A stretch of DNA of 64,000 nt from Defluviitaleaceae bacterium (lineage in GTDB: Bacteria; Bacillota; Clostridia; Lachnospirales; WQUN01), in the NCBI GenBank assembly GCA_009786535.1, contig WQRX01000003.1, positions 2,325 through 66,324 of the forward strand. The letters are read 5' to 3'. This document shows, in pieces, positions 3,262 through 38,772 of this stretch. Every line of letters begins with the position of its first letter. The stretch's first letter is position 1. Position numbers and translations under genes: made by a program. A model generated the notes under the pieces. That model was not told the origin of the DNA and searched no databases. It saw only the letters and a list, made by a program, of their open reading frames with translations.

Positions 3262-3732
3262 ATGGTTGTATACTGGATTATTGTTGCAATATTTATTGTG
3301 TTTTCAGTGCAAAGATGGATGAATCTAAACACCCCTATCACTAGCTCAATAGGGGCAAAGCCACCTCAATATGCAAAAATCTTCTTTTTTGTTGCACCCA
3401 TATGTGCCGTAATTGTATTTGCAGTTTTATTCTCAGCCGTACTTACAGAGCGTTTAAGCGAAAGAAGTTCACACGCATTAATTGTCCTTATGTTATGGCT
3501 ATATTCAGCTTCATTTTATGCTGATGCTGTCTTTTTCGGAGAGAAGAAATTCTATAGGCTATGTTGTATCTTTTTTGTAATTATAACAGCAGGAATGGCA
3601 ATTCTGTTGTCACCATTAGACCATTATGTGACATTGCTTGATGGCTTCGTTCCAATTGGCGTATATGGTATAGGTATATGCATGTTGCTGGTATATTATA
3701 TTAGCTTACTTTTATCCTACCGTCGAAAATAA
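3262..3732 (+). CDS. Small hydrophobic membrane protein, function unknown
   Basis: This 156-residue protein is mostly hydrophobic, with about four or five predicted membrane helices and a short basic tail (SYRRK). No catalytic motif is recognised. The AT-rich base use differs from the GC-richer transporter genes on its left. The gene is bracketed by a 24-bp inverted repeat (3149 and 3745), which suggests it arrived as a small unit. The ATG at 3262 has a weak GGGAG upstream. Confidence 0.6.
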   Translation: MVVYWIIVAIFIVFSVQRWMNLNTPITSSIGAKPPQYAKIFFFVAPICAVIVFAVLFSAVLTERLSERSSHALIVLMLWLYSASFYADAVFFGEKKFYRLCCIFFVIITAGMAILLSPLDHYVTLLDGFVPIGVYGIGICMLLVYYISLLLSYRRK

Positions 3733-3744
3733 ACATTGACAGCG

Positions 3745-3768
3745 TTATTTACGCCCTTCACAGATTAC
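3745..3768 (-). repeat. Right arm of the inverted repeat flanking the gene at 3262
   Basis: This is the reverse complement of 3149-3172 with one mismatch. The arms lie 572 bases apart, with the membrane-protein gene and the terminator at 3181 between them. Confidence 0.8.
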
Positions 3769-3901
3769 GCTTTAAGGGGAAGTGGTATGAATGATAAGAA
3801 AATTCGTTGAAATTACAGGTGGTGCGAGAAAATTGCAAGAATCAATAGCGTATGAATAAGTGCATATTGACAACTTTTTATATAGACAGGGAGACAAAGT
3901 T

Positions 3902-4345
3902 ATGAAAAACCACTTCACCGCAACGGGCATTGTATTTAACCCCGCAGGGCGCGTATTGATGATTAAACACAAAAAGCTAAAGGTATGGCTGCCCCCCGGC
4001 GGGCATATTGATGAAAACGAACTACCCAACCACGCCGTAGCCCGCGAGATATTGGAAGAAACGGGCGTACGCGTACAGGTAATTTCTGCGGCGAATCCCG
4101 CGTTGCCCGTGACGGAAATAGAGTTGCCCCTGCCCATGGAAATTCTGCTGGAGGATATTGAAGGCGACGGCTCCCACAACCACATCGACATGATTTATTT
4201 GTGCAAAACGGAAGAATCGGCAGTCGATATGCAACGGGCAGAAGTGGATGATTGTAGCTGGTTTACCCCCGAGGAGATAGAAAGGTTGGATACCTTTGAG
4301 AATGTGAAAAATTCTGTGCGCAAGGCAGCGATGATTATTACGTGA
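3902..4345 (+). CDS. NUDIX hydrolase
   Basis: This 147-residue protein is likely to hydrolyse a nucleoside diphosphate linked to another group. The NUDIX box is complete: a GG-HI lead, then AREILEETGV with the REXXEE core near residues 35-57. An N-terminal beta segment (TGIVFNPAGRVLMIKH) is typical of the fold. I place the start at the ATG at 3902 because GACAGGGAGACAAAG gives a good ribosome binding site. A GTG at 3860 in frame lacks one. The substrate cannot be told from sequence. Confidence 0.9.
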   Translation: MKNHFTATGIVFNPAGRVLMIKHKKLKVWLPPGGHIDENELPNHAVAREILEETGVRVQVISAANPALPVTEIELPLPMEILLEDIEGDGSHNHIDMIYLCKTEESAVDMQRAEVDDCSWFTPEEIERLDTFENVKNSVRKAAMIIT

Positions 4346-5129: not shown

Positions 5130-7349
5130 ATGTTTAAAACGGTGTATATCGGTGAAGTGAAAAGTATTTCAAACCTAGGCTTACCTGCAACGGTAGACGG
5201 CAACGCGGTAACATGGCAGGTAACGGAAGTTCCGTGGACAAAAAAAGACGCGCCTGTGGAAATGATTTACGACCCCAGTAAACAAGGGGTATATACATTT
5301 ACAAGCTCGGCGGGAACGCAAATTTTTGTGGAAAACCGCCACAAGAACGCCGCCGCGTACCGCCCCCGTTCGGCGGAGTGGCTGGACAGGGGTGTGGTTG
5401 CCCTTCCCGTACATGAGAAGCGCGGTACGGGGATGCTGGTGAAGTGGCGGTTGTTGGGCACGGAATACGGACAGGGCTTGACCTTCGATGTATACCGTAA
5501 TGGAGAAAAAATTACCAACGCTTCAATATCGGGGTTAAATTTTATTGATGAAAAGGGCAAAGCAGGGGACGAATATGTGGTGGAAGTAGCGCAAACGGGG
5601 GAAAAATCCCGCCCTGTAACGGCGTGGGCGCGGAATTTCATGGACATTCCCCTGCAACGCCCCGCCGACCGCGAAAACCCCGCCGTAAAGTACGGCGCGG
5701 AGTACGGCGATGCCTTCCCCATCACCTATACGGCGAATGACTTGGCGGTTGCGGACATAGACGGCGATGGGCGGTATGAGATTTTAGTGAAGTGGTATCC
5801 TTCCCAAGCCCAAGACCCGGGGCTAACCCCCAAACACACGGGGGAAACGATTTTTGATGCGTATACCCAAGAAGGGAAATTGCTTTGGCGCATTAATTTG
5901 GGGATAAATATTGTTTCCAGCGCCCATCATTCGATATTTAATTTTTTTGATTTGAATGAGGACGGACATGCGGAGCTGGCGCTCAAAACCGCCGACAATA
6001 CGCGGGTATACCACCCCAAGGCAGACGGTACGATTTGTGACCTTACGGACACCCCCGTGCATGTTATTGGCGACCCGAATGCGGTGTGGATTGGCGGGTT
6101 GCCCAACCCTTCCAAAGGGGGGGCGGTAAACCAAACCATGCTGGCGCGGGTGGCAAGCGGGCCGGAATATTTTACGATTTTTGACGGGCGCACGGGTATT
6201 CCCATTGATACGGTGGATTATTTTGCGCCCTATGGCATTAACGCGGGGAAATGGGGGGACGCAAGCAATAATAGAAGCGACCGCTTTAACGGCTGTGTTG
6301 CGTACCTTCCCAAGTTTGGCGAGCCCGAGAAGCCCTACCCCAGCGTAATAGAGGTGCGGGGGCATTACGGGCCCCATTTTGTGGCGGCGTACCAGCTTAT
6401 TAAAGGGAAAATTATTAAGGTGTGGGAATACATTCACAGCGAATGGGACGCGGGGCGTTACCAAGGCAACCACCAGCTTGCGGTGGCGGACGTGGATTGT
6501 GACGGCTTCGATGAAATTATTTTCGGCGGCATTGTGCTGGACCAGGATGGCACGATTGTATGGTCCTCCAACGGCACGCGGGGCACGATAACGGCGGGGC
6601 ATGGCGATGCAATGCACCTAAGTGTGATGCGCCCCGATTCCGAGGATTTTTACCTATTTAGCCCGCGGGAATGCCGCCCTCCCAATAATGTGACGCTCTT
6701 TAAGGCCGCTACGGGCGAGCCGATTTGGACCTTCGATGCCGACAGCAAGGACGTTGGGCGCGGTATGGCGGCGAACGTTACGCCTATGGCGGGCTTCGAG
6801 GTATGGGCTTCGGCAAAGACGCCTATGTACAATATTTGCGCCCAAAAAGTTATCGCCACGGGCTGTGGGGAGATTGGTTTTGCGGGCATTGCCCCCGTCA
6901 ATTTCCGCCTATATTGGGACGGCGACCTGCTCTCGGAAATGCTGGACGGCGCAGACGGCGGCGCCTTGTTTATTTCAAAATTCCATTACAACGCCGCAGA
7001 CGGCGACAAAAGCACGCTGGAAACCTTGCTAACCCTGGAGGGCACCATTTCCAACAACGGCACAAAAGCCAATGCGGGCTTGGTTGCAGATATTTTCGGC
7101 GACTGGCGGGAGGAAGTGCTGGTGCGCACCGCGGATAATAATGCCCTGCGCATTTACACCACAGACATTCCCTCGGAATACACATTGTACACTCTCATGC
7201 ACGACCCCGTGTATCGGCTGGCAATAAATTGGCAGAATGCCGTGTACAACCAACCCCCGCATCTTGGGTTTTATTTAGGCGAGGATATTCGGGAAAAGGT
7301 AAAGGAAGGGGGGCTACCCGTGCCGAGGATATTTTACGTGGGGAAATAA
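5130..7349 (+). CDS. Rhamnogalacturonan lyase-like protein, polysaccharide lyase family 11
   Basis: This 739-residue protein resembles YesW/YesX lyases that cleave the rhamnogalacturonan I backbone of pectin by beta-elimination. After an N-terminal extension of about 70 residues, the family core begins near WLDRGVVALP. It continues with a calcium-rich beta-propeller carrying repeated D-x-D-x-D turns (DIDGDGRYEIL, DVDCDGFDEIIF) and a conserved C-terminal DIFGDWREEVLVRT segment. No signal peptide is visible, so a cytoplasmic exo-acting (YesX-like) role on imported oligomers is likelier than secretion. The ATG at 5130 is preferred over a TTG at 5118. Both have only weak upstream G-rich sites. 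Confidence 0.88.
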   Translation: MFKTVYIGEVKSISNLGLPATVDGNAVTWQVTEVPWTKKDAPVEMIYDPSKQGVYTFTSSAGTQIFVENRHKNAAAYRPRSAEWLDRGVVALPVHEKRGTGMLVKWRLLGTEYGQGLTFDVYRNGEKITNASISGLNFIDEKGKAGDEYVVEVAQTGEKSRPVTAWARNFMDIPLQRPADRENPAVKYGAEYGDAFPITYTANDLAVADIDGDGRYEILVKWYPSQAQDPGLTPKHTGETIFDAYTQEGKLLWRINLGINIVSSAHHSIFNFFDLNEDGHAELALKTADNTRVYHPKADGTICDLTDTPVHVIGDPNAVWIGGLPNPSKGGAVNQTMLARVASGPEYFTIFDGRTGIPIDTVDYFAPYGINAGKWGDASNNRSDRFNGCVAYLPKFGEPEKPYPSVIEVRGHYGPHFVAAYQLIKGKIIKVWEYIHSEWDAGRYQGNHQLAVADVDCDGFDEIIFGGIVLDQDGTIVWSSNGTRGTITAGHGDAMHLSVMRPDSEDFYLFSPRECRPPNNVTLFKAATGEPIWTFDADSKDVGRGMAANVTPMAGFEVWASAKTPMYNICAQKVIATGCGEIGFAGIAPVNFRLYWDGDLLSEMLDGADGGALFISKFHYNAADGDKSTLETLLTLEGTISNNGTKANAGLVADIFGDWREEVLVRTADNNALRIYTTDIPSEYTLYTLMHDPVYRLAINWQNAVYNQPPHLGFYLGEDIREKVKEGGLPVPRIFYVGK

Positions 7350-27980: not shown

Positions 27981-28064
27981 GCCCGAGTGGCGGAATTGGT
28001 AGACGCAAGGGACTTAAAATCCCTCGGTAGCAATACCGTGCCGGTTCGAGTCCGGCCTCGGGCA
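27981..28064 (+). tRNA. tRNA-Leu, anticodon TAA
   Basis: The 84-base cloverleaf has a 7-bp acceptor stem (GCCCGAG/CTCGGGC), discriminator A and a D arm with GGAATTGGTAGA. The anticodon stem GGGAC/ATCCC surrounds TTAAAA with anticodon TAA. A class II variable arm and the T arm GCCGGTTCGAGTCCGGC follow. CCA is not encoded. Its 3' part (28011-28064) is the insertion target of the element to the right and is supplied intact by the element. Confidence 0.97.
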
Positions 28065-28065
28065 G
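28011..28065 (+). other. attL, 55-bp attachment repeat in the tRNA-Leu 3' end
   Basis: This 55-bp segment is identical to 38718-38772. It spans the anticodon loop to the base after the discriminator. Confidence 0.93.
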
Positions 28066-28076
28066 TGTTGTAAAAT

Positions 28077-28115
28077 CAAGGTTTCTGACCATTCGTCGGG
28101 AACCTTGGTTTTTTA
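28077..28115 (+). terminator. Terminator for tRNA-Leu supplied by the element
   Basis: A stem CAAGGTT/AACCTTG (28077-28083, 28101-28107) with inner pairing is followed by GTTTTTT. It lies inside the element, replacing the chromosomal terminator that now sits right of attR. Confidence 0.7.
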
Positions 28116-28136
28116 TTTCGAGGCCAATTTTTGCTC

Positions 28137-28161
28137 ATGTCCCCGAAATGTCCCCGATATT
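28137..28161 (+). repeat. Subterminal 25-bp direct repeat, left copy
   Basis: This sequence is identical to 38557-38581. It holds two tandem copies of ATGTCCCCGA. It lies just outside the integrase stop codon, about 75 bases from attL. Confidence 0.85.
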
Positions 28162-28163
28162 GT

Positions 28164-29315
28164 TCAGTTTGTGAAATTAACAAAACGCTCGTTCAATTTT
28201 GATGCAATTTCCTTCTTTGCATCCATGTCTAAGCTAAGGTAAAGATTCGCGGTGGTTTGGATATCGCCGTGTCGTAGCCATGTTTGAATATCCTTCAAGT
28301 CAAATCCCAAATACTTCAAGTACCCAGCGGAAGAATGGCGCAAATCATGGAAACGAATGATTGGCATATTACTCTGGCGCAACAGCGTTTCAAAATGGTC
28401 GGTAACATAATCTGGTTTTATGAGTCGCCCATCAAACCTTGTGCAAACGTAATCGCTCTTGAAATAATCGTTTGGCTGTATTTTTTTGTACTCGACCTGC
28501 CGCGCCTTCCACCGCAGTAATTCCGTTTTTATCATTTCGCCCAAAGGAATTACGTCGTAGCTACTGTCATTCTTGGTAGCGTCCATCATGAACATTTCCC
28601 CGTGCATGTACGTTACGGTATGCTTGATTGTAATGGTATGAGCATCCATGTCTATGGCACTCCATTTTAACCCAAGCACCTCGCTTCTCCGAAATCCATA
28701 GAAGACCGTTAGCAGCACAACCATTTCCAAGGGGTCGCCCTTTGAACATTTTAATAGCTGCTCAATTTGTTTCTCGTTGTAATGCTTTGCGCCAGTGTAC
28801 TTGACCTTTTTAGGCATCTCAATCCGCTTAGTGGGATTGAACGCAATTAAGTTTTGTCGCACGGCACTATCAAGACATTTGGAAATATTCCGAAGGTGCT
28901 TGATAATAGTGTTGGGCGAAATGGATTTCATCTTATAATTCACATAATCTTGGATATGGGCAGGGGTTAAATCTTTTACCCTAATCCGCTTTGGCTCGAA
29001 AAACGGCGTGATTTGATTATTGAGAATTACCTTGTATCCACTGTAGGTAGTTGGTGACAACGAATGTTTCAGATTCTCAAGCCATTGCCGCATGAAATCG
29101 AGGAACAAGATGTTGCTGCTTAAATCAACCTTATGTCGCTCATGTTCAGCCAGTACCTCCTTTAATATGTCCTGCGCCCGTCGCTTATTATTTCCCTTGA
29201 TTGGGATGTTCGTGGTTATCCACTTTTCCTGCGGCTTGTTCGTAACATCATCTTTATAACGAATTACGATGTAGTAATTTGGGCGCTCTTTTTTTGTTCG
29301 TAGTGTTGCAGTCAT
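28164..29315 (-). CDS. int: Tyrosine recombinase integrase
   Basis: This 383-residue integrase has an arm-binding N-terminal domain and a core-binding SAM-like domain (about residues 65-150). The catalytic domain carries Arg in FYGFRRSEVLGLKW, HDLRHSSAGYL (H-x-x-R), RHGD and the Tyr nucleophile in TANLYLSLD. It should recombine attP with the tRNA-Leu attB site. The start at 29315 has AAAGGATGA upstream, and earlier in-frame starts do not fit a site. The gene ends about 100 bases from attL. Confidence 0.96.
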   Translation of the reverse strand: MTATLRTKKERPNYYIVIRYKDDVTNKPQEKWITTNIPIKGNNKRRAQDILKEVLAEHERHKVDLSSNILFLDFMRQWLENLKHSLSPTTYSGYKVILNNQITPFFEPKRIRVKDLTPAHIQDYVNYKMKSISPNTIIKHLRNISKCLDSAVRQNLIAFNPTKRIEMPKKVKYTGAKHYNEKQIEQLLKCSKGDPLEMVVLLTVFYGFRRSEVLGLKWSAIDMDAHTITIKHTVTYMHGEMFMMDATKNDSSYDVIPLGEMIKTELLRWKARQVEYKKIQPNDYFKSDYVCTRFDGRLIKPDYVTDHFETLLRQSNMPIIRFHDLRHSSAGYLKYLGFDLKDIQTWLRHGDIQTTANLYLSLDMDAKKEIASKLNERFVNFTN

Positions 29316-29427
29316 AAGTATCATCCTTTCTGAATGAAAAAATCCCACCTATGCTACAGCCAGTCACGAAGTATTATAACACAGGAAGGATTTTTGTCAT
29401 ACTTGGAACGCATTTACTCAGGTAAAA

Positions 29428-29655
29428 TCATGAATCGCACACATTAAAGAATTGATTTTGAATGTAAATTTTTGGCACTTTGCAAGCGCAACCTATCCGA
29501 ATAGGTGTGCCGAATTTGCCGTTTTGAAGCTCTTTATAAATAGTTTGCTTGGAAACATCGAAGATGGTGCATAAATCGCTTACATTGAGAATATCGCGAT
29601 AACCGTCAAGGGTTGATAAATTATATGCAGAACTCTGGGCCGATTGAAAATTCAT
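29428..29655 (-). CDS. Helix-turn-helix excisionase-like protein
   Basis: This 75-residue protein carries a MerR/Xis-type helix-turn-helix (ILNVSDLCTIFDVSKQTIYK, then NGKFGTPIRIG wing-like turn). Such proteins act as excisionases that bend attachment DNA beside integrase genes. The ATG at 29655 has GAGGTGAGC upstream. It is transcribed toward int, as is usual for xis-int pairs. Residues after the wing (CACKVPKIY) are shorter than in typical excisionases. Confidence 0.75.
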   Translation of the reverse strand: MNFQSAQSSAYNLSTLDGYRDILNVSDLCTIFDVSKQTIYKELQNGKFGTPIRIGCACKVPKIYIQNQFFNVCDS

Positions 29656-29796
29656 TATGCTCACCTCAAATAATTAAAATATATATGCATCTACGCATAA
29701 TTTGGGTGGATGTATGGATCGATAATTAATATTCCATAGAACAACTTGGATCAACTCGTTTGTAATATACTAGCGAATTTCTAATTTATGTCGAAA

Positions 29797-30189
29797 TTAT
29801 TCTCGTTTTGCAAAGACTGCTTGTATCTCATCAGTTGAAATACCTTGCATCGATAAGAGCTGACGAACATCATTTGGTATGCATTCAATGTTTTTGAATA
29901 AAACCATGCGGGATTGTTTGGCATGTTTTTCTGAAACAACTTTCAGCTTGCATAATTCATCCAGAATGTTTCCAGCTCTGTTGCCCATGCGAAATTGTTT
30001 TGCGATTTGACAAGCAGAAATACGTTTATACCCCAATGACCACAATATGATTGCGGCCAATTCCTTTTCACGAGTATTTGATGCTACGATAGGAGCTAAT
30101 GATTCATCGTTCAATGTAGATGCAGACGAATTAAAGATTTCCAAGATTAATTTATTGCTGGTTTCATGTGCGTCAGGAAAAATGCACAC
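29797..30189 (-). CDS. Winged-helix protein, FtsK-gamma-like segment
   Basis: This 130-residue protein has a central region (about residues 40-95: LAAIILWSLGYKRISACQIAK, then RMGNRAGNILDELCKLKVV) that resembles the DNA-reading gamma winged helix of FtsK translocases. The ATPase part is absent. It may be a small DNA-binding regulator. The start is probably the GTG at 30189 with GAGGCAAGG upstream. It lies between the excisionase-like gene and the divergent antitoxin gene, a common place for an element repressor. Confidence 0.6.
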   Translation of the reverse strand: MCIFPDAHETSNKLILEIFNSSASTLNDESLAPIVASNTREKELAAIILWSLGYKRISACQIAKQFRMGNRAGNILDELCKLKVVSEKHAKQSRMVLFKNIECIPNDVRQLLSMQGISTDEIQAVFAKRE

Positions 30190-30335
30190 TTTCCTTGCCT
30201 CGATTTGAAAAATTTCTCGTGAGCATCTTGACTTTTACACCGCAGGGTTGTGACTCTAGGTGACCCCTCCAGGGTTGGCTCAATGGTGGCTCGTTGAAGA
30301 TTACAAGCAAATTATAAGATAAAAAAACCGTAAAA

Positions 30336-30367
30336 AGTTTGCATTTGCAACTATTTTGCCGTACACT
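30336..30367 (+). promoter_or_regulatory. Promoter and probable operator of the antitoxin gene
   Basis: TTGCAT (30339-30344), a 17-base spacer and TACACT (30362-30367) form a promoter. An imperfect palindrome AGTTTGCATTTGCAACT (30336-30352) overlaps the -35, which fits self-repression by a RelB-type protein. Confidence 0.6.
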
Positions 30368-30384
30368 CATGGTGAGGTGATGCC

Positions 30385-30699
30385 ATGGTTAAAACATCGG
30401 TTACCAAAACAGCGAATATCAATGTACGCCTTTATCCTGAGTTAAAAACCGCGGCGGAAAACGTCTTTACTTACCACGGGTTATCATTACCAGACGCAAT
30501 AACGGTGTTTTTTAGCCATGCCTGTCGTGTGGGTGGATTTTCCTTTGAATTAAAGGGTGCGCGGTGGAATGACCCTGTTTCCTTAGCGGCATTACAAGAG
30601 AGCAATGAAATTCTTGCAAATCCGAATGCATATAAAAGTTATCACGATGTTTCGGAGTTGTTTGCCGATTGTTTGAATGGCGAAGATGACGATGATTAA
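30385..30699 (+). CDS. RelB/DinJ family antitoxin
   Basis: This 104-residue protein has an N-terminal ribbon-helix-helix (ANINVRLYPELKTAAENVF, then HGLSLPDAITVFF) typical of RelB/DinJ, which bind their own operator and a YafQ-type RNase. The C-terminal half would wrap the toxin. The ATG has GGTGAGGTGATGCC upstream. The downstream toxin gene is cut short (30692-30757), so this antitoxin appears orphaned. Confidence 0.9.
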   Translation: MVKTSVTKTANINVRLYPELKTAAENVFTYHGLSLPDAITVFFSHACRVGGFSFELKGARWNDPVSLAALQESNEILANPNAYKSYHDVSELFADCLNGEDDDD

Positions 30700-30757
30700 A
30701 CGCGAAGTACATCGTTCTGCTCAATTTCGCAAGGATTTACGGTTGGCGTGTAAATAA
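30692..30757 (+). pseudogene. Truncated YafQ-like toxin start (21 codons plus stop)
   Basis: The frame MIKREVHRSAQFRKDLRLAC ends with one further Lys codon and TAA. It matches the first helix of YafQ-family mRNA interferases, whose usual length is about 90 residues. It overlaps the antitoxin end by eight bases, as intact yafQ genes do. Catalytic residues are absent. No rest of the gene is visible downstream. Confidence 0.75.
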
Positions 30758-30800
30758 AGTTCAACAACTGCGCAACATATAAAACACATAACATCATTTA

Positions 30801-30833
30801 AACCCGTGCCGATTGGTGCGGGTTATTTTATTT
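30801..30833 (+). terminator. Terminator after the antitoxin gene
   Basis: Arms AACCCGTGCC and GGTGCGGGTT (30801-30824) pair over 10 positions with two wobbles, followed by ATTTTATTT. It separates the antitoxin unit from the reverse transcriptase. The RT ribosome binding site begins 10 bases later. Confidence 0.7.
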
Positions 30834-30848
30834 CGAGGAGGAAGCCCC

Positions 30849-31988
30849 ATGCCATTTATTACAATTAAACAACCGCCCGTTTATTATCAGATGACCTTTG
30901 AAGATATGATGGCGGGTGTGGAAGATTTAAGTAAATATGTAATGTCCAATATCACCAACACGCGCACTTACTGGGTAAACCGCCCCAGCCGTAAATTGCT
31001 AGAGCGTACACAAATTGGTGAGATGATACAATTGCTCAGTGCGTTTAACCGCTCGAAGGAAGCATTATTCACACAGGAAAGGCGGGCATTGTACCATACG
31101 TTTCATATCCCCAAGAGCAGCGGTGGATTACGCCGTATCGACGCGCCTTGTCCAGAGCTAATGAATACCTTGCGGGAATTAAAATCGTTAATTGAAAATC
31201 ACATGTTCGCGCTATACCACACCACCGCATTCGCTTATATTCGCGGACGCAGCACCATCGGCGCAATAAAACGCCACCAGCGCAATGAAAGCAAGTGGTT
31301 CTTGAAACTGGACTTCGCGGATTTCTTTGGTAGCACTACGCTGAAGTTTGTGATGAGTATGTTATCACAGATATTTCCCTTTAGCGAAATAGTCAAAAGC
31401 ACCCACGGGCGGGAAGAACTTGAAAAGGCACTTAGCCTGTGTTTTCTCAATGGTGGACTGCCGCAAGGGACACCCATCTCGCCCTTCCTTACCAATTTAA
31501 TGATGATTCCCATTGACCATTGCATTAGTAATGATTTGCGAAATTTGGATAATCGCCGTTTCGTTTACACCCGCTACGCCGATGACTTGTTAATTTCATG
31601 CAAGACTAATTTTGATAAGGATTTAGTGCAGCGGCTTGTAAATGAAGCACTATCGAAGTTTAACGCCCCGTTTTCGATTAAAGCGGAGAAAACGCGCTAC
31701 GGTTCTGCCGCTGGGCGCAACTGGAACTTAGGGCTAATGCTTAACAAGGATAACGAAATCACCATCGGTCACAAGCGCAAGAAAGAATTTAAAGCAATGC
31801 TGGAAAACTATATGCGTGACCGTAAAGCGGGTAATGCTTGGGATAAATATGACTTACAAGTTTTACGTGGTCTTATCAGTTACTACCGCATGGTGGAGCG
31901 GGATTACATTGACTACCTGCTCCAGCAATATGGGAAAAAGCATGGCACGAATATTAATTTCTGTATTAAAACAGATTTATCGGCGTAA
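30849..31988 (+). CDS. Retron-like reverse transcriptase
   Basis: This 379-residue RNA-directed DNA polymerase has fingers-palm motifs in order. They are an IPKSSGGLRRIDAP block (residues 88-101), LDFADFF with catalytic Asp155, GLPQGTPISPFLTNL (203-217) and the active site RYADDLLIS with Asp245 and Asp246. NLGLMLNKDN (293-302) sits where retron enzymes carry their VTG motif, and GAIKRH (138-143) sits near their NAxxH motif. There is no maturase, endonuclease or other fused domain. CGAGGAGGAAGCCCC gives a strong ribosome binding site at 30849. An RNase HI gene follows after 13 bases. Retron, defence-RT or a new group are all open. Confidence 0.93.
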   Translation: MPFITIKQPPVYYQMTFEDMMAGVEDLSKYVMSNITNTRTYWVNRPSRKLLERTQIGEMIQLLSAFNRSKEALFTQERRALYHTFHIPKSSGGLRRIDAPCPELMNTLRELKSLIENHMFALYHTTAFAYIRGRSTIGAIKRHQRNESKWFLKLDFADFFGSTTLKFVMSMLSQIFPFSEIVKSTHGREELEKALSLCFLNGGLPQGTPISPFLTNLMMIPIDHCISNDLRNLDNRRFVYTRYADDLLISCKTNFDKDLVQRLVNEALSKFNAPFSIKAEKTRYGSAAGRNWNLGLMLNKDNEITIGHKRKKEFKAMLENYMRDRKAGNAWDKYDLQVLRGLISYYRMVERDYIDYLLQQYGKKHGTNINFCIKTDLSA

Positions 31989-32001
31989 AGGGAGGTGCGT
32001 A

Positions 32002-32436
32002 ATGAAAAAAGTAACGATATATACCGATGGCGCGTGTTCTGGAAACCCTGGCCCTGGTGGATATGGTGCGGTGTTATTATTTGGAAATCACCGCAAAGAG
32101 TTATTCGGTAATGTACAAATGACCACTAATAATCGCATGGAATTGATGGGCGCAATCATCGCGTTAGAAACCCTCAAATCTGCCTGTGAGGTAGAAATCT
32201 TTTCCGACTCCCGCTACCTCGTTGATGCCATTGAACAGAATTGGGTTACACGATGGAAGGCAAACGGCTGGCGGCGAAACAAACGCGAACCCGCATTAAA
32301 CGTAGATTTGTGGGAGCGATTGTTACCTCTTCTTGCAATGCACAAGGTTACGTTCCGTTGGGTTAAAGGACACGCGGGTAATGTGGAAAATGAACGCTGC
32401 GATGCGTTAGCGCGAGTAGCGATAAAAAATCTATAA
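32002..32436 (+). CDS. Ribonuclease HI encoded beside the reverse transcriptase
   Basis: This 144-residue enzyme degrades RNA in RNA-DNA hybrids. All four catalytic acids are present: Asp9 (IYTDGAC), Glu47 (NRMELMG), Asp69 (FSDSRYL) and Asp134 (NERCDALA). GHAGNVENE provides the conserved His loop, and a basic WKANGWRR handle segment is present. The start has GGGAGGTGCGTA upstream. It is 13 bases after the RT stop, so the pair is one operon. RNase H could trim the RNA template of the cDNA made by the RT. Its length is typical of stand-alone type 1 enzymes. Confidence 0.95.
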   Translation: MKKVTIYTDGACSGNPGPGGYGAVLLFGNHRKELFGNVQMTTNNRMELMGAIIALETLKSACEVEIFSDSRYLVDAIEQNWVTRWKANGWRRNKREPALNVDLWERLLPLLAMHKVTFRWVKGHAGNVENERCDALARVAIKNL

Positions 32437-33295
32437 GGTGCATTAATTAATGTCCTTACAACAAGCCTTTGTAATGAATAGTTGGATTTATCAACGCTTC
32501 ATGTGTTTCGCTGAAGTATTAAAACGCAAGGCTAGGAGGGGTGAACGACGAAGCGCTGGGGCCGAGATCTGTGGTCTTCTCTGCAGGTTATTTATTTCGT
32601 GTTGATTGAAGATGTTGATAAATCAAGGTGTTTTTCCATACCTAAATTATTTGTCCACAGCTTTTCATGACGTCAACGGGAGGATGCAGCCTGAGGCACG
32701 CCGGTTACACCTCATCCACTTCTTCGTAGATTACAAAGGGTAATGAAGTCCATTTACAATGTATAGTTCTATTATTGATGCGAACCGCGTGCCCTTTGCA
32801 CAAGGGTACGTGGGTTCGTCTTTACTGGAATGCTCTGCGGTAAAACCCAGAGTGAAAAAACGTCAACGCAGGAGGGTGGCGCGCAGGAACGAATCTGGAG
32901 AAATACGGGTTCATGGGATGACCATAATGAGGGTTCGTCATTGGGTCGGCTGTTGGAATTCCCCATAATTTTAATATTGGCGGGGGTTGCGATCTCATCG
33001 ACTGCCGTGTATCCGCCTGCCGCGGCTGTTGTGCTCCTCCTGAGCCTTTAGCTCGCACCTGTTGCAGATTGTAAATGTGTAAAATGAAAATCCATAATGT
33101 ATAACTGCATCAACAGGATGCGGTGCTTCGTGGTTAAACCCGTAGTTGTGAAATTGCAAGCAATGTCGCAAATCTCCAAGAGATTTGCTCCTGTGTCAAA
33201 GCACCACACCAACTGCAGGGACTAAACCGCCGAGTTCCTTCGGCTTGGCAGCCAGCAGGAACTCCGCCGTTTAGACCCTTCCGTTGGGCGTTTCT
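32437..33295 (+). ncRNA. Large structured non-coding region downstream of RT-RNase HI (candidate template RNA)
   Basis: No supported protein frame exists here, but pairing is dense. (1) A long-range stem joins about 32482-32503 to 32606-32627 (TTTATCAAC with GTTGATAAA). (2) ACTTC/GAAGT encloses ATTAC/GTAAT at 32718-32748. (3) A 15-bp hairpin with one bulge lies at 32780-32818. (4) CATTTACAAT (32752-32761) can pair with ATTGTAAATG (33068-33077) and would close a domain of about 325 bases. (5) GGTGCTT/AAGCACC (33122-33205) encloses a perfect GCAAATCTC hairpin (33168-33188). (6) A long hairpin with 18 of 21 pairs lies at 33219-33277. The strand and the number of RNAs are inferred. Confidence 0.6.
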
Positions 33296-33325
33296 TTGTG
33301 GATTATGGATTAAACGTGGTATACT
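33296..33325 (+). promoter_or_regulatory. Promoter of the ATPase gene, extended -10
   Basis: TTGTGG (33296-33301), an 18-base spacer and TATACT (33320-33325) preceded by TGG. The ribosome binding site AAAGGGG follows 14 bases later. Confidence 0.65.
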
Positions 33326-33353
33326 AAACTAAGTAACGAAAGGGGTTGCAATC

Positions 33354-34745
33354 GTGACTAATGTATTTTTCGAGCGGGATATTTATGCCTATTTAATAAA
33401 ATGGGTAGAGCAATTTTCTGATAGGGCATTATATTTGAATGGACCCCGCCAAGTGGGGAAAACCAGTATCCTAAAAAAACTGGGGGCGGAGCATTTTGAA
33501 CGGTGTGTGTATATTAATCTTTATATTGACGATGTCAGAAACGACTTTGAGCAAAGCATCCGCACGCACAGAGAAAAATTTGGCACATCCAAGTTCGATG
33601 AAGAATGCGGCCCTATGTGGGAAGAAATTTTAAAAGCACAAGATTCAAACTACACCAATGACCCAGCCACACTGGTTATTCTGGATGAAATTCAAGAATC
33701 CTCCATTGCGTACAATAATATTCGTCAGATACGCCGTGGGTTAAAAAGCAAGTTGGCAATAACGGGAAGTTATTTGGGTATCGTAAGCAATTTTAAGGGA
33801 TATAAGTTTCCCACAGGCGATGTAACATTTGCAGAAATGTCCAGCATGACATTCATTGAGTTTTTAAAAGCAAATGGCGTGTGGGAAAATTACGACCCCA
33901 TTCAAACCTTCGATTGGGCAAAAATGACCGAGCATGAACAAGAAACTTGTGAACATGTACGTGAATTATATCGCGTGTATTGCATAATCGGTGGATATCC
34001 TGATGTTGTTAGTAAGTGGGTCAACACGCATAATATGGATGCTTGCAAACTCTTAACCGCAGATTTGTTGCAGTCATTCTACAGGGAGAGTAGTGCCTAT
34101 TTTGAAGAAATTATTGGGCGAACCCTCTGGATGAAAACACTGGGCAGGGTAGCCGCGCATATGGTCACCAAATCGGGCGACCTAGATATTACAATTGCAA
34201 AGGAAGTTTTTCGCGACAATACCAGCGAGGGGTTGGGTATACGGCGTAGAGATAAAATAAATGCGCTCAAGTGGCTGGATGAATGCTGTATAACAGGTAC
34301 AGTCCCCGTATTTGACAAGCTAGAAAAAGTAACCTCTATCGGTAATAAATTATTTTTCTATTTCCGAGATATGGGTCTTTTAACACAGTTATGCGAAGAT
34401 GATTTTGATGTTTTAAAAAGCAATTACGACGGCATGGCGGCGGAAAACTTTGTTTATCTTCACCTTCTTGAAGAAACAGGTAAATTGTTTGTTGGTGACG
34501 ATGTTCGTAGCTTTAGTAATCCGCAAGGTCAAATTGATTTCGTAATGCACGACAAAAACCGCAAACGCTACGGCATCGAGGTCAAGCACGGTAAAGGGGA
34601 AACCAAGTCGGCAGACACAGCTTTGCGTGAGGGGCGAATCGACTTCCTCATCAAAGTACAGGACACCTATGGCTCGATACAGGACAACCAAGCTACAATT
34701 CCTATCTTCATGCTGGATAAATTAAAATATATAATCAAAAAATAA
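33354..34745 (+). CDS. AAA-type ATPase with DUF4143-like C-terminus
   Basis: This 463-residue protein has Walker A GPRQVGKTS (about residues 30-38), Walker B LVILDEIQE (about 109-117) and a sensor-like KLAITGSYLG. A middle helical region leads to a C-terminal domain with QIDFVMHDKNRKRYGIEVKHG. That fits the D-x(n)-E-x-K pattern of PD-(D/E)XK folds seen in the DUF4143 family. The GTG start has GAAAGGGG upstream. Such ATPases are common cargo in islands, and their function is poorly known. It has its own promoter and terminator. Confidence 0.88.
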   Translation: MTNVFFERDIYAYLIKWVEQFSDRALYLNGPRQVGKTSILKKLGAEHFERCVYINLYIDDVRNDFEQSIRTHREKFGTSKFDEECGPMWEEILKAQDSNYTNDPATLVILDEIQESSIAYNNIRQIRRGLKSKLAITGSYLGIVSNFKGYKFPTGDVTFAEMSSMTFIEFLKANGVWENYDPIQTFDWAKMTEHEQETCEHVRELYRVYCIIGGYPDVVSKWVNTHNMDACKLLTADLLQSFYRESSAYFEEIIGRTLWMKTLGRVAAHMVTKSGDLDITIAKEVFRDNTSEGLGIRRRDKINALKWLDECCITGTVPVFDKLEKVTSIGNKLFFYFRDMGLLTQLCEDDFDVLKSNYDGMAAENFVYLHLLEETGKLFVGDDVRSFSNPQGQIDFVMHDKNRKRYGIEVKHGKGETKSADTALREGRIDFLIKVQDTYGSIQDNQATIPIFMLDKLKYIIKK

Positions 34746-34768
34746 GAAAATAGATTTTACTTTTACAA

Positions 34769-34806
34769 TGACCCTGGTTCATTCCGAACATGGGGTTATT
34801 TTTTTG
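34769..34806 (+). terminator. Terminator after the ATPase gene
   Basis: A hairpin with arms around ACCCTGGTTC and GAACATGGGGT is followed by TATTTTTTT. Confidence 0.75.
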
Positions 34807-34890
34807 AGATAAAATTCGATTTTATAATGTAAGCGCATAAAGTTTGCCATTGCCTCTACTTAGAAATAAATAAAATCTAGGAGTGAGGTC

Positions 34891-37524
34891 ATGAATGATA
34901 TAGCCGTTAGTTTACTTCTGCATAAATTTACGCAAAAACCCAGCGAGGCCGAAGCAGCAATAATCAGCAGCAGCATCGCTAAAAATGTTCATAACATCAA
35001 GCGAAACGAACTTAAATTGTTAGCGCAAGCGATAGGCGAAAATGGAGTTGTTTTTTGCCCGGCTACATTTAACAACGGTGCTCGTAATAGTGATAATTTC
35101 AACCAGACGCAATTAATTGCACTGGACTTCGACAACAAAGTGCCAGATAAGTTTATATCATTTAAATCTGTACAGGATAGGGCTGATTATTATGACCTGC
35201 CAATTCTTTTTTCTTACGAAACCTACACCAGCAGAAACCATGATAAATTCAGAGTAGTATTTTTGAACGATGCGCCCATTCCTGATACGAGAACCGCTAA
35301 GGCGATGTTGCAAGCCTTACACACGATTTTCCCGGAAGCTGACCCCCAAGGGAAAAGCCCGGTGCAGATGTATTACGGTGGCAAAGGTCTGCTCCACTAT
35401 AATGAAGCCAATCCTGAAATTAATGCAAGTTCCCTGTTCACAAACCTTACGCATTATTTCGAAGATACCCACGGTCCACACACTTACCGTCGAAAAGTTG
35501 CCGAGTTTGCTCGGGTATCAGGGATTTCACTCAACGAGAAGAAACTACTGGATGTTTCTGTAACCGAGGAAGTCGCTGAGCGTGATGGTGCGGGGTGTTT
35601 TGTTAAAAACCTACCAAACTCTACTACTATATTATCTAGCTTTGGTGAAAAATTAACAAAACGGTATCGAATTAATTTTGGGGAAGGTTGCACCCATACC
35701 CTCAGCGCCAGCGGAAAGACCGATTTTCACAGAACGCTTCGGGCCGGTGACTTCGATAGTCTTCGTAGTTGCTGTCAATTATTCCGTGAATTTGAAAACG
35801 GAAGTCGGCGGTTGCCACATTCAGAGCTATTTGGACTGGCTACTAATTTGGCACATGTTGAAACAGGTGCTAAGTGGTTCATCGGTACCCTCCGCTCTGT
35901 CGCGTATTATGATAACCGACCTGATAAATACCGAAAATGGCAACAGGATTTCCGATATATAAAAGCACCCTCTGCCTGTGTGGGGTTCTGCCCCTTTGCA
36001 AATGATTGTACCCATGGTATGAATATTATATCCACCGCCAAGGTGAAGCATAATAAAATGGAACGGCTTGCTAATTATCAAGAAACCTATGTTTCGCTGG
36101 ATGAAGCCGTTGATGATTTCAAAAGAAATCTACTCCGCACCGTGGATGCCGATGATGGAAAGTGGCACGTTATAAAGGCGCAAACTGCGTTAGGCAAGAC
36201 AAGGACTTATTTGGAATATCTCAAGGATACACAAAAAAAGGTATTGATAGCAGTGCCAACATTAGCGCTTATGCAGGAGATATGCGACCGAGCTACCCAA
36301 TCGGGAATAGATATTATTGCATCCCCATCGTTACGCGAATCAAAAGATTTACTACCCGATGATATTTGGAATGATATCGAGGGGTTATACGAAATGGGTA
36401 AATCGGTAATTCCCTATTTACAAAAGCACATCCGTGAAGATAATCCATCTTGCGCGGCATTGTTTAAGCAGTATTTAACTGAACTATCCGCCTTTAAAAA
36501 TAATGATGGACACGGCATAACCACACATAAACGCTTGCTCACCATGGATACCGATAATTATGATTTAATTATCATCGATGAAGATATCATTCTTAACAGT
36601 GTCATTCAAAACAAATGCAGCATATCAATACGTCAACTAAAAAAGTTACGCACCAAAGCGCCACCAAACAGTGCCTTGCTCCGCAAAGTCCAAGCGGTAT
36701 TAAGATATGTAAAAAAGCATGAGTTTTTCACCCTGCGCAAAATTGAATATGACAAAGACTACGAGGATATATCGGCGGCAACCGATATATCCTCATTTTG
36801 TGCTGCCAAGTATTTTTGTTTTTGCAAAGCAAAAAGCGCTGATGGTGATAATAACCAAGATGAAAGCTGTGTTCATTTTCTAAAACCCGTAGTGTTTAAG
36901 GGACACACTACACGCATCATGGTATCCGCCACTGCCGATGAAACAATATGCAACCTCTACTTTGGCAAAAGTAATGTAGACTTCCACGAATGTAAATGCG
37001 CCCAAAACGCAGGAACTTTTCGCCAATATTATAACATACCCATGAGCCGCCAGAGCATCGGTAAAGATAATGCAATTATAAAACGAATTATAAATTGGTC
37101 AGGTTTCACAGAAACCATATCTTTCAAAAAATTCAAGCAGCACTATGGAGGTGAGTTACACTTTGGTAACACCGCTGGTTATGACGGGTTAAAAGGGATG
37201 TCAGTAAATATTATCGGTACGCCCCACCAGCCCGAATGGATTTACAAGCTATTTGCATTATCCATTGGACTGGATACTGACCCAATATTAAAACCAGGTG
37301 TGACGGTAAACCATAATGGCTACAGATTCCGTTTCACCACCTACGACAACGCTAGTTTGCGCGCGATTCAATTTTATATTATCGAATCGGAACTGGAGCA
37401 AGCGGTAGGTCGGGCGCGATTGCTTCGCGAAGCAAGTGGGGTTATTAATCTGTTCTCTAATTTCCCGCTTCGTCATGCAAAAATGCTTACATGGAAAGAT
37501 AGCACCACTCAATCGGAAAATTAA
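34891..37524 (+). CDS. Primase-helicase replication protein of the element
   Basis: This 877-residue protein has an N-terminal primase-polymerase-like part (about residues 50-140, with the acidic LIALDFDN motif) and a Cys-rich zinc-finger-like patch (ACVGFCPFANDCTHG near residue 370). A C-terminal superfamily 2 helicase follows: an ATP loop variant in AQTALGKTRTYLEYL (about 430), a DEDI box in LIIIDEDIIL, a TRIMVSATADE motif III, and an AVGRARLLRE motif VI-like arginine segment. It probably starts replication of the excised element. GGAGTGAGGTC precedes the ATG. Confidence 0.8.
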   Translation: MNDIAVSLLLHKFTQKPSEAEAAIISSSIAKNVHNIKRNELKLLAQAIGENGVVFCPATFNNGARNSDNFNQTQLIALDFDNKVPDKFISFKSVQDRADYYDLPILFSYETYTSRNHDKFRVVFLNDAPIPDTRTAKAMLQALHTIFPEADPQGKSPVQMYYGGKGLLHYNEANPEINASSLFTNLTHYFEDTHGPHTYRRKVAEFARVSGISLNEKKLLDVSVTEEVAERDGAGCFVKNLPNSTTILSSFGEKLTKRYRINFGEGCTHTLSASGKTDFHRTLRAGDFDSLRSCCQLFREFENGSRRLPHSELFGLATNLAHVETGAKWFIGTLRSVAYYDNRPDKYRKWQQDFRYIKAPSACVGFCPFANDCTHGMNIISTAKVKHNKMERLANYQETYVSLDEAVDDFKRNLLRTVDADDGKWHVIKAQTALGKTRTYLEYLKDTQKKVLIAVPTLALMQEICDRATQSGIDIIASPSLRESKDLLPDDIWNDIEGLYEMGKSVIPYLQKHIREDNPSCAALFKQYLTELSAFKNNDGHGITTHKRLLTMDTDNYDLIIIDEDIILNSVIQNKCSISIRQLKKLRTKAPPNSALLRKVQAVLRYVKKHEFFTLRKIEYDKDYEDISAATDISSFCAAKYFCFCKAKSADGDNNQDESCVHFLKPVVFKGHTTRIMVSATADETICNLYFGKSNVDFHECKCAQNAGTFRQYYNIPMSRQSIGKDNAIIKRIINWSGFTETISFKKFKQHYGGELHFGNTAGYDGLKGMSVNIIGTPHQPEWIYKLFALSIGLDTDPILKPGVTVNHNGYRFRFTTYDNASLRAIQFYIIESELEQAVGRARLLREASGVINLFSNFPLRHAKMLTWKDSTTQSEN

Positions 37525-37804
37525 AACAGTGCGCCTTCTAAACCGCCAATTTTGGACATTATTAAATGAATTAGAGCGATGGGTGAGGTGGGTGAAATAT
37601 AACCCCTCACCCTGTTACTATACTAAAAAGAGTAGGATATTCTATTATTGAATGACGAATTTTCATAAAGATAATATATGGGGACGTTGAGTGACAAGTT
37701 GCAAATGTAATAATGTGGTATTGTTGGATAAATTATATTCCCAATCCGACCGATGCGCATTATAATGTTATTGGATTAAAACGATAACTATTGGGAGGTG
37801 CTCA
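37525..37804 (+). promoter_or_regulatory. Intergenic region with a hairpin and a probable promoter
   Basis: A hairpin GGGTGAGG/CCTCACCC (37581-37612) has no T-run. A TATAAT (37761-37766) lies 39 bases before the next ATG, with only a weak -35. I see no gene here. The region may also hold the replication origin of the element, but no iterated sites are evident. Confidence 0.4.
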
Positions 37805-38071
37805 ATGTTAAAAAAGATAGAAAACCAAGAAATTATAACCACCCGTGAAGCAAAAGCAAAGTATCCAACACAATATATCTACATGCTTCTCACAAAGACC
37901 GTTGACATGAGCGGTCAAAACGATTTGGGGTATGTAGAATATATAGCTGACAAAAAAAAGGAACTGCTCCAAATTCCAAGAGAAAATTACAAAGGAAAAT
38001 TAACAGCCTCATTAGACGGTGAAGATACGGAACCGTTCCCAATTCTTGACAGGGTGGTTTATTATGACTAG
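37805..38071 (+). CDS. Small protein paired with the retropepsin gene, unknown function
   Basis: This 88-residue charged protein has no recognised family. TTGGGAGGTGCTCA gives a strong ribosome binding site. Its last three codons overlap the start of the protease gene, so translation is coupled and the products may act together, perhaps as substrate or inhibitor. The N-terminus (ITTREAKAKYPTQYIYMLL) could be helical. Confidence 0.7.
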   Translation: MLKKIENQEIITTREAKAKYPTQYIYMLLTKTVDMSGQNDLGYVEYIADKKKELLQIPRENYKGKLTASLDGEDTEPFPILDRVVYYD

Positions 38072-38555
38072 CATTGAATTTGAAAAATATGGTCGAGTGT
38101 TTATTAATATTTATGCAAAACCAGTGGATGATAATATTATGCTTCCTATTCAATTCAAAGTCGATACTGGGGCGGATATGTCAACGATTGCAAAGGCAGA
38201 CTTGGCGAGACTGGGTTATGACATGGATTGGATTAAAGAAAATGCAATTGTTTTTGAAGATAAGGATAAGCCCACAACGGCTTCCGGGGATAAGATAAAC
38301 GCAGGCTATGTTCAATTACCGCTGATTAACATTTTAGAATACGAAGGCAAAAAATGGCCTTTTCAAATTATCATGGATGAACAACAAGATTTTCGTAATT
38401 TAATGGGTCGTGATTTATTAACCGGGTTTAATTATGAATTTAATAATGATGACGATGTATTCACGATACGAAGAGCCAATAAATTTAAACCCAGATATAA
38501 ATTTATACTTGGGCAGGAAATTCATGAAATATTAATTGGGGATTCTAAGAAATAA
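38064..38555 (+). CDS. Retropepsin-like aspartic protease
   Basis: This 163-residue protein carries the single-domain aspartyl protease signature FKVDTGADMSTI, with the catalytic Asp34 in DTGA. The matching late motif is FRNLMGRDLL (about residue 115), in the place of the retropepsin I-x-G-R-[DN] segment. Such enzymes act as homodimers. Its start at 38064 overlaps the upstream small gene. It is the last gene before the right subterminal repeat and attR. Cellular substrates of bacterial members are mostly unknown. Confidence 0.85.
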   Translation: MTSIEFEKYGRVFINIYAKPVDDNIMLPIQFKVDTGADMSTIAKADLARLGYDMDWIKENAIVFEDKDKPTTASGDKINAGYVQLPLINILEYEGKKWPFQIIMDEQQDFRNLMGRDLLTGFNYEFNNDDDVFTIRRANKFKPRYKFILGQEIHEILIGDSKK

Positions 38556-38556
38556 A

Positions 38557-38581
38557 ATGTCCCCGAAATGTCCCCGATATT
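38557..38581 (+). repeat. Subterminal 25-bp direct repeat, right copy
   Basis: Identical to 28137-28161. It starts right after the protease stop codon and lies about 137 bases from attR. Confidence 0.85.
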
Positions 38582-38717
38582 CGTAAAAAAATCCGTTCGC
38601 GTGGGTACAATAATTTTTTCGCAGGGCAAAGCAAAAGGGCACGCAAACCCGCTAATTATCTAGGTTTATCGGTTGTTAAGGAATATTAAGTGTGACCAGC
38701 TGTAGCATAGAAAAAAA

Positions 38718-38772
38718 GACTTAAAATCCCTCGGTAGCAATACCGTGCCGGTTCGAGTCCGGCCTCGGGCAG
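38718..38772 (+). other. attR, duplicate of the tRNA-Leu 3' part
   Basis: 55 of 55 bases match 28011-28065. It lacks the 5' half of a tRNA, so it is not a functional tRNA gene. Confidence 0.93.

Follow-up and report, generated by a model that had tools for sequence, protein, structure and literature searches.

The 64,000-nt window analyzed here (the whole stretch, from contig WQRX01000003.1 of a Defluviitaleaceae bacterium; its coordinates count from the first nucleotide of the window) carries about 0.86 kb of non-coding DNA (32437-33300) downstream of a reverse transcriptase (RT) gene. This raises the question of whether the stretch specifies one large RNA or several, and how it is related to the RT. 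The first-pass annotation had described a single RNA of nested long-range domains, with a possible pseudoknot, a hint of internal duplication and a long hairpin resembling a retron msd stem.

Three closed RNA units downstream of the reverse transcriptase

A repeat search identified three perfect 10-bp long-range pairings in tandem on the + strand, 3' of the RT and RNase HI genes. The region consists of three consecutive closed retron-like RNA units and not of one 0.86-kb domain. Scores refer to the covariance model R1 described below, and related loci carry L numbers.

32466-32739, + strand: U1, retron-like ncRNA unit (61.3 bits; orthologues in L002-L005, L016 and L020); a1 32466-32475, branch-type G 32476, hairpin 1 32481-32495, hairpin 2 32497-32516, body, a2 32730-32739
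32751-33077, + strand: U2, retron-like ncRNA unit (46.8 bits; has orthologues); a1 32751-32760, G 32761, enlarged hairpin 1, hairpin 2 32833-32852, body, a2 33068-33077
33089-33311, + strand: U3, retron-like ncRNA unit with a long msd-like hairpin (52.1 bits); a1 33089-33098, G 33099, hairpin 1 33107-33121, hairpin 2 33126-33145, small hairpin near 33168-33188, msd-like hairpin 33209-33287, a2 33302-33311

The closing repeat of a1 and a2 is perfect over 10 bp in each unit. In all three, the AAT at the end of a1 adjoins GNATA, and a G precedes the ATT with which a2 begins. A pairing proposed earlier for 32752-33077 does exist and is the a1/a2 repeat of U2 (32751-33077); the closures of U1 (32466-32475/32730-32739) and U3 (33089-33098/33302-33311) had been overlooked. 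The domain formerly placed at 32482-32627 reflects an 11-bp pairing that is present in the letters (32485-32495/32614-32624) but shares bases, in its 5' arm, with the hairpin 1 of U1 conserved in relatives. Likewise, the supposed pseudoknot of GTAGTTG with CAACTGC overlaps the 3' arm of hairpin 2 in U3, which relatives keep as CTTCG/CGAAG. The long hairpin, first placed at 33219-33277, is real and extends over 33209-33287; compensatory changes occur at 13 of its 31 pairs among four orthologues, and its likeness to a retron msd was upheld. The hint of internal duplication was sound, but the repeat chosen for it was not, since the copies of ACGTCAACG do not occupy equivalent sites in U1 and U2. 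In register, these units share AAAACG..AGGAGGG (32521-32540 and 32857-32876, spacing 336). Of the earlier description, structured non-coding RNA with a retron-like msd hairpin and signs of duplication was retained, and the single RNA with a pseudoknot was given up.

Compared with dinucleotide shuffles, the whole stretch folds with a z-score of -5.03 (0 of 20 shuffles as good), and U1, U2 and U3, each folded alone, reach -2.3, -4.6 and -5.7. The non-coding assignment was confirmed: ORFs of the stretch have no conserved homologue in 112 related loci, and a hidden protein was ruled out because no conserved frame occurs among them. Membership in an Rfam family was rejected after a search of the window region and of L003, L020, L027 and L061, which gave no relevant match to any curated covariance model, including any retron msr model. 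Promoter and terminator scans between the RNase HI gene and U1 showed no clear signal.

The anatomy of the units has blemishes, namely one T-T mismatch in hairpin 2 of U3 and an inserted stem in hairpin 1 of U2, and the bodies of U1 and U2 lack one clear long msd hairpin. Both points count against an array of retron units. Consensus folding of the U1 orthologues revealed no conserved body structure beyond the frame, and a conserved stem is lacking in the bodies of both U1 and U2, which are the longer ones. Several U1 orthologues contain a DnaA-box-like inverted pair, TGTTGATAA with a sequence like TTATCCACA (window ~32613-32654, L003, L016); in L003 and L016 this pair is a possible lead to the role of U1.

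A constant RNA frame with variable bodies

The array belongs to a large, mostly phage-borne family. Its relatives, from gut Bacillota and many phage contigs of ~50-150 kb, carry one to eight same-strand units around the same RT, located 5' of it, 3' of it or several kb distant. When the starts of 51 units, selected partly by hairpin 2 and without use of hairpin 1, were aligned, a frame of two msr-type hairpins emerged; in the second, a 5-bp stem is followed by a bulge of one base, a further 3 bp and a loop of three bases. Pairing-preserving changes on both sides occur at each of the 15 pairs of the two hairpins; 95.5% of the cells are paired compared with 64% in shuffled alignments, and the covariation score is 0.918 compared with 0.280. 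Hairpin 2 was also present in 52 of 62 units picked by a1/a2 alone, compared with 2.3% of random positions. Every unit starts with an a1 ending in AT that is followed by GNAT, and the units mostly end with NNRG followed by an a2 beginning with AT.

The covariance model R1 represents this frame. It detected at least one unit in 53 of 82 dereplicated RT loci and two or more in 39. The 29 loci with no R1 match were counted against the presence of retron arrays; perhaps the model does not reach divergent units. Scanning of 16 whole phage contigs gave matches in 15, on the RT strand and mostly close to the RT, with a few units up to ~14 kb away. In the genome from which the window derives, R1 matched only U1-U3 and four units at a second, intact RT locus. 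This genome was also the only match in a phylum-wide sample of 398 genomes, which indicates that the system is sporadic. An exact-motif scan of IMG/VR recovered only the L020 array, so that exact motifs are too strict a criterion in this family.

The frames of orthologous units are 69-79% identical, and unit-specific a1 types (U1 TTTGTAAT; U2 ATTTGCAAT/ATTTACAAT) recur in loci whose RTs are 52-81% identical. Eight units are located on the phage contig from which L020 derives. In four of the U2-type units there, the first 78 nt are 84% and the last 25 nt 77% identical, whereas the interiors are at chance level (57% compared with 56% in shuffled sequences). Different units of one locus have interiors of chance or near-chance similarity in other loci too; when loci are compared with each other, the bodies of same-class units retain some similarity, ~58-63% compared with 53-57% after shuffling.

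A spacer-like origin of the bodies was rejected. No other sequence in the L020 phage contig matches the L020 bodies, and the U1 body of the window has no further match in its own genome. Among annotated phage records the window stretch has no counterpart, and the L020 array is matched over 59 nt only.

Three further observations concern individual loci. L096 has two identical 348-nt units (3630-3977 and 5380-5727) flanking the RT, owing to recent duplication, gene conversion or an assembly artefact. In several loci (L006, L007 and L009) serine recombinase genes lie 3' of the units. A phage contig of this family contains a sub-threshold RAGATH-36 RNA match among tRNA genes (L061:7873-8057; 47.9 bits, gathering threshold 70).

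The reverse transcriptase

30849-31988, + strand: retron-like reverse transcriptase, 379 aa from ATG (TTG at 30813 possible); PF00078, YADD

By profile, the RT is matched best by the NCBIfam model of the St85 retron RT (186 bits, under that model's cut-off of 235), and PADLOC assigns it to RT_II-A. A profile search of PDB returned the Ec83, Ec78 and St85 retron RTs as best matches. Both models and structures thus place the enzyme with the retron RTs, though below the St85 cut-off. In an alignment with these, the family has [D/G]AxxxH in place of NAxxH in region X and NLG in place of VTG in region Y. Each of the two canonical motifs is found in 14 of 16 validated retron RTs, and two validated retrons also deviate in NAxxH (PMC6868368). 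Because both motifs are missing, the system is termed retron-like and is not filed as a member of a known retron type; their absence was counted against a retron array. In a small tree the members of the family cluster together next to the retron RTs sampled; support is modest (81/95), and the long branches make this placement weak.

Two other classes of RT were considered and rejected. A diversity-generating retroelement is contradicted by QGTPISP instead of [IVL]GxxxSQ in motif 4 and by the L020 bodies, which have no other match in the L020 contig. A group II intron is contradicted by a score of 82 bits for the maturase model compared with 186 bits for the retron model, and by the lack of an Rfam intron match. 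Read-through of TAG in the L002 RT was dismissed as well, as both TAGs precede the start codon.

Neighboring genes and the integrative element

The RT locus of the window lies inside a 10.7-kb element integrated at a tRNA-Leu gene (28066-38717 between the repeats), which also encodes a DEAD-box-like protein.

28011-28065, + strand: attL, from the 3' part of the tRNA-Leu gene; forms a perfect 55-bp direct repeat with 38718-38772
28164-29348, - strand: tyrosine recombinase (integrase) of the element; PF00589, PF14659
30200-30308, + strand: U0 remnant, 3' part, CTTGACTTTTACACC (TTGACT 30228-30233), with a2 ATTACAAGC at 30300-30308; aligned with 9 intact U0 units
30385-30699, + strand: RelB/DinJ-like antitoxin ORF, located after the U0 remnant and before the RT; TIGR02384 36.6 bits, below cut-off
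32002-32436, + strand: RNase HI, between the RT and U1; PF00075 E 3.5e-45; PRK00203 206.9 bits, above cut-off
33354-34745, + strand: AAA_14 ATPase with DUF4143, directly 3' of U3; PADLOC candidate PDC-S01
38718-38772, + strand: attR, the other copy of the tRNA-Leu 3' end; length of the element ~10.7 kb

A second, 25-bp direct repeat within the element (28137-28161 and 38557-38581) perhaps represents arm-type recombinase sites. An ORF near the element end (38019-38555) has a retropepsin-like aspartyl protease domain (DTGAD; PF13975/PF13650 near cut-off).

RNase HI genes are located near the RT in six loci, namely that of the window, L020, L047, L069, L071 and L088. This recurrence fits the need of retron RTs for RNase H1, on which termination of retron RT-DNA depends (PMC8989520). 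RNase HI is missing from all close RT relatives checked, and in L003 the U1 repeat begins right after the RT stop codon.

U0, a unit upstream of the RT, also occurs in relatives and occupies the usual retron position. In the window its 5' half with a1 and hairpins is missing, and no a1 was found upstream. A TTGACT/TTGACA box near the 3' end of the U0 bodies is present in 8 of 9 units and in the window remnant, with no clear -10 box; it may be an RT promoter or an msDNA feature.

No known retron effector was found among the eight neighboring genes scanned in the window. The AAA_14/DUF4143 gene, which has a 75% identical counterpart 3' of U3 in L003, and the Ubl module described below are effector candidates only.

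Phage relatives and the Ubl/JAMM/E1 operon

RTs 70-81% identical to that of the window are encoded in metagenome-assembled genomes of Bacillota, titled Oscillospiraceae and Defluviitaleaceae, for which the isolate names suggest a termite gut origin. An RT search of IMG/VR gave 374 matches, 80 of which were taken up, mostly contigs of ~50-150 kb. In ~60 of 81 RT clusters (85% identity) the RT is preceded by four conserved genes. The first encodes a 76-aa protein (Ubl) with a predicted fold like SUMO and ubiquitin, the second a ~480-aa protein without known relative, the third a JAMM/MPN protein with invariant E68, H127, H129, S137 and D140 and a predicted fold like Rpn11 and CSN5, and the fourth a ThiF/E1 enzyme (PF00899). 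Examples are:

L020:332-3497: Ubl/~480 aa/JAMM/ThiF-E1 operon upstream of the RT
L013:2196-5683: the same operon upstream of the RT
L117:6479-9692: the same operon upstream of the RT

The operon is also present at the second RT locus of the host genome, and none of its genes occurs in the window.

Proposed function of the array

The tandem a1/a2 repeats, the covarying hairpins, the constant ends in L020, the profile kinship of the RT, the msd-like hairpin of U3 and the recurrence of RNase HI support an array of three distinct retron-like msr-msd units. Judged from sequence, these would be co-transcribed with and served by the single upstream RT and yield several msDNAs, a reading to which we assign a probability of roughly 0.76. 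Unit anatomy, covariation, recurrence and operon context can be read directly from the loci, and the following mechanism is proposed on this basis. The RT would recognize the two-hairpin msr common to all units and use the 2'-OH of the G that immediately follows a1 as primer, forming a putative 2'-5' branch, with the a1/a2 pairing holding this G beside the template end. Each unit's own body, next to a2, would be copied into a separate msDNA, and the neighboring RNase HI may remove or trim the RNA template. One enzyme and its array would in this way produce several different msDNAs, as a natural multi-msDNA retron.

The units might instead be structural or scaffold RNAs that the RT binds via the two hairpins, with no unit-by-unit msDNA; they may serve to assemble RT complexes, like those of defence-associated RT systems, or be the template of another product. 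The signature motifs of the RT, which are unlike those of canonical retrons, and the long units without an obvious msd stem are consistent with this. However, the G after a1, the a1/a2 closure and the msr-like hairpins amount to the priming anatomy of retrons, and the msd-like hairpin of U3 is clear and has compensatory changes, so that we regard a scaffold function as unlikely. It is more doubtful still that a single unit (e.g. U3 or an ancestral U0) is active among decaying duplicates. The truncation of U0 in the window and the chance-level similarity of paralogous bodies would be expected under decay, yet compensatory change has kept the a1/a2 pairing and both hairpins, unit-specific a1 types recur across loci with 52-81% identical RTs, and the orthologous frames have stayed 69-79% identical. 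A single 0.86-kb RNA with nested domains has the good folding energy of the whole stretch in its favor and is nevertheless very improbable: in relatives the units separate cleanly, with RNase HI or small ORFs between them or several kb apart, and each recurs alone with the same ends and different interiors. That the units are mobile templates spread by the RT as retro-elements, with a1/a2 as terminal repeats, might explain the variable copy number (1-8) and the identical units flanking the RT in L096, but hardly merits consideration given that R1 matches in the scanned phage contigs share the strand of the RT and are mostly close to it, and that the host genome has units at its two RT loci only.

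With respect to the array of msr-msd units, its biological role can be approached through the phage relatives, in which it belongs to a Ubl/JAMM/E1-ThiF module that probably serves in conflict between phage and host or between phages. Host factors or those of rival phages could be the targets, each body acting as a decoy or sensor for a different one. A more specific and tentative proposal, which we hold at somewhat less than even odds, is a phage retron array of one RT and up to eight cassettes with a constant frame and fast-changing bodies, whose msDNAs act as exchangeable decoys or sensors together with the Ubl module. If one RT does yield several natural msDNAs, retrons are not always one-sensor systems, combining a constant frame with variable bodies would be a way for DNA decoys or sensors to diversify, and the two-hairpin frame, being conserved, would provide ready-made arrays for multiplexed ssDNA production. 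The association of the Ubl/JAMM/E1 operon with the array in large phages joins two conflict systems that were unconnected so far in the literature searched.

Comparison with known systems

Retrons of the St85/Ec78/Ec83 kind (NCBIfam NF038233, PADLOC RT_II-A, RT_I-A) contain the closest RT relatives by profile and share an ncRNA with a1/a2 repeats, a G directly after a1 and msr hairpins, as well as the location of U0 on the 5' side of the RT. A standard retron contains a single msr-msd, which lies upstream of the RT (PMC6868368). In contrast, the RT here is accompanied by several different units, the majority 3' of it, and has no known effector adjoining; it carries [D/G]AxxxH where NAxxH is canonical, NLG where VTG is, and an N-terminal extension of ~70 aa, and most relatives carry the Ubl/JAMM/E1 operon. 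The DRT2, DRT3 and DRT9 systems likewise combine an RT with a structured ncRNA, whereas the a1/a2-branch anatomy found here is retron-like, and the Drt2 and Drt3a models score the RT at 47 and 39 bits compared with 186 bits for the retron model. Bacterial Ubl conjugation systems (6A to 6E, PRTRC, CBASS Cap2/Cap3) also unite a Ubl fold, JAMM and ThiF/E1 in one operon; the operon of the relatives differs in its extra ~480-aa protein and its location beside a retron-like RT, with weak matches to PRTRC_ThiF and 6A-MBL.

The open-access literature searched contained no report of natural retron arrays or of multiple ncRNAs or msDNAs per retron, although a report elsewhere is possible; there, retron arrays have so far been described only as engineered tools. 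Such arrays, with several msr-msd cassettes per RT, were reportedly presented by Gonzalez-Delgado et al. in Nat Chem Biol in 2024. They resemble the present locus in combining several cassettes with one RT and differ in being designed, whereas the array described here occurs naturally in phages and in a bacterial integrative element and would be their natural version if the RT serves all units.
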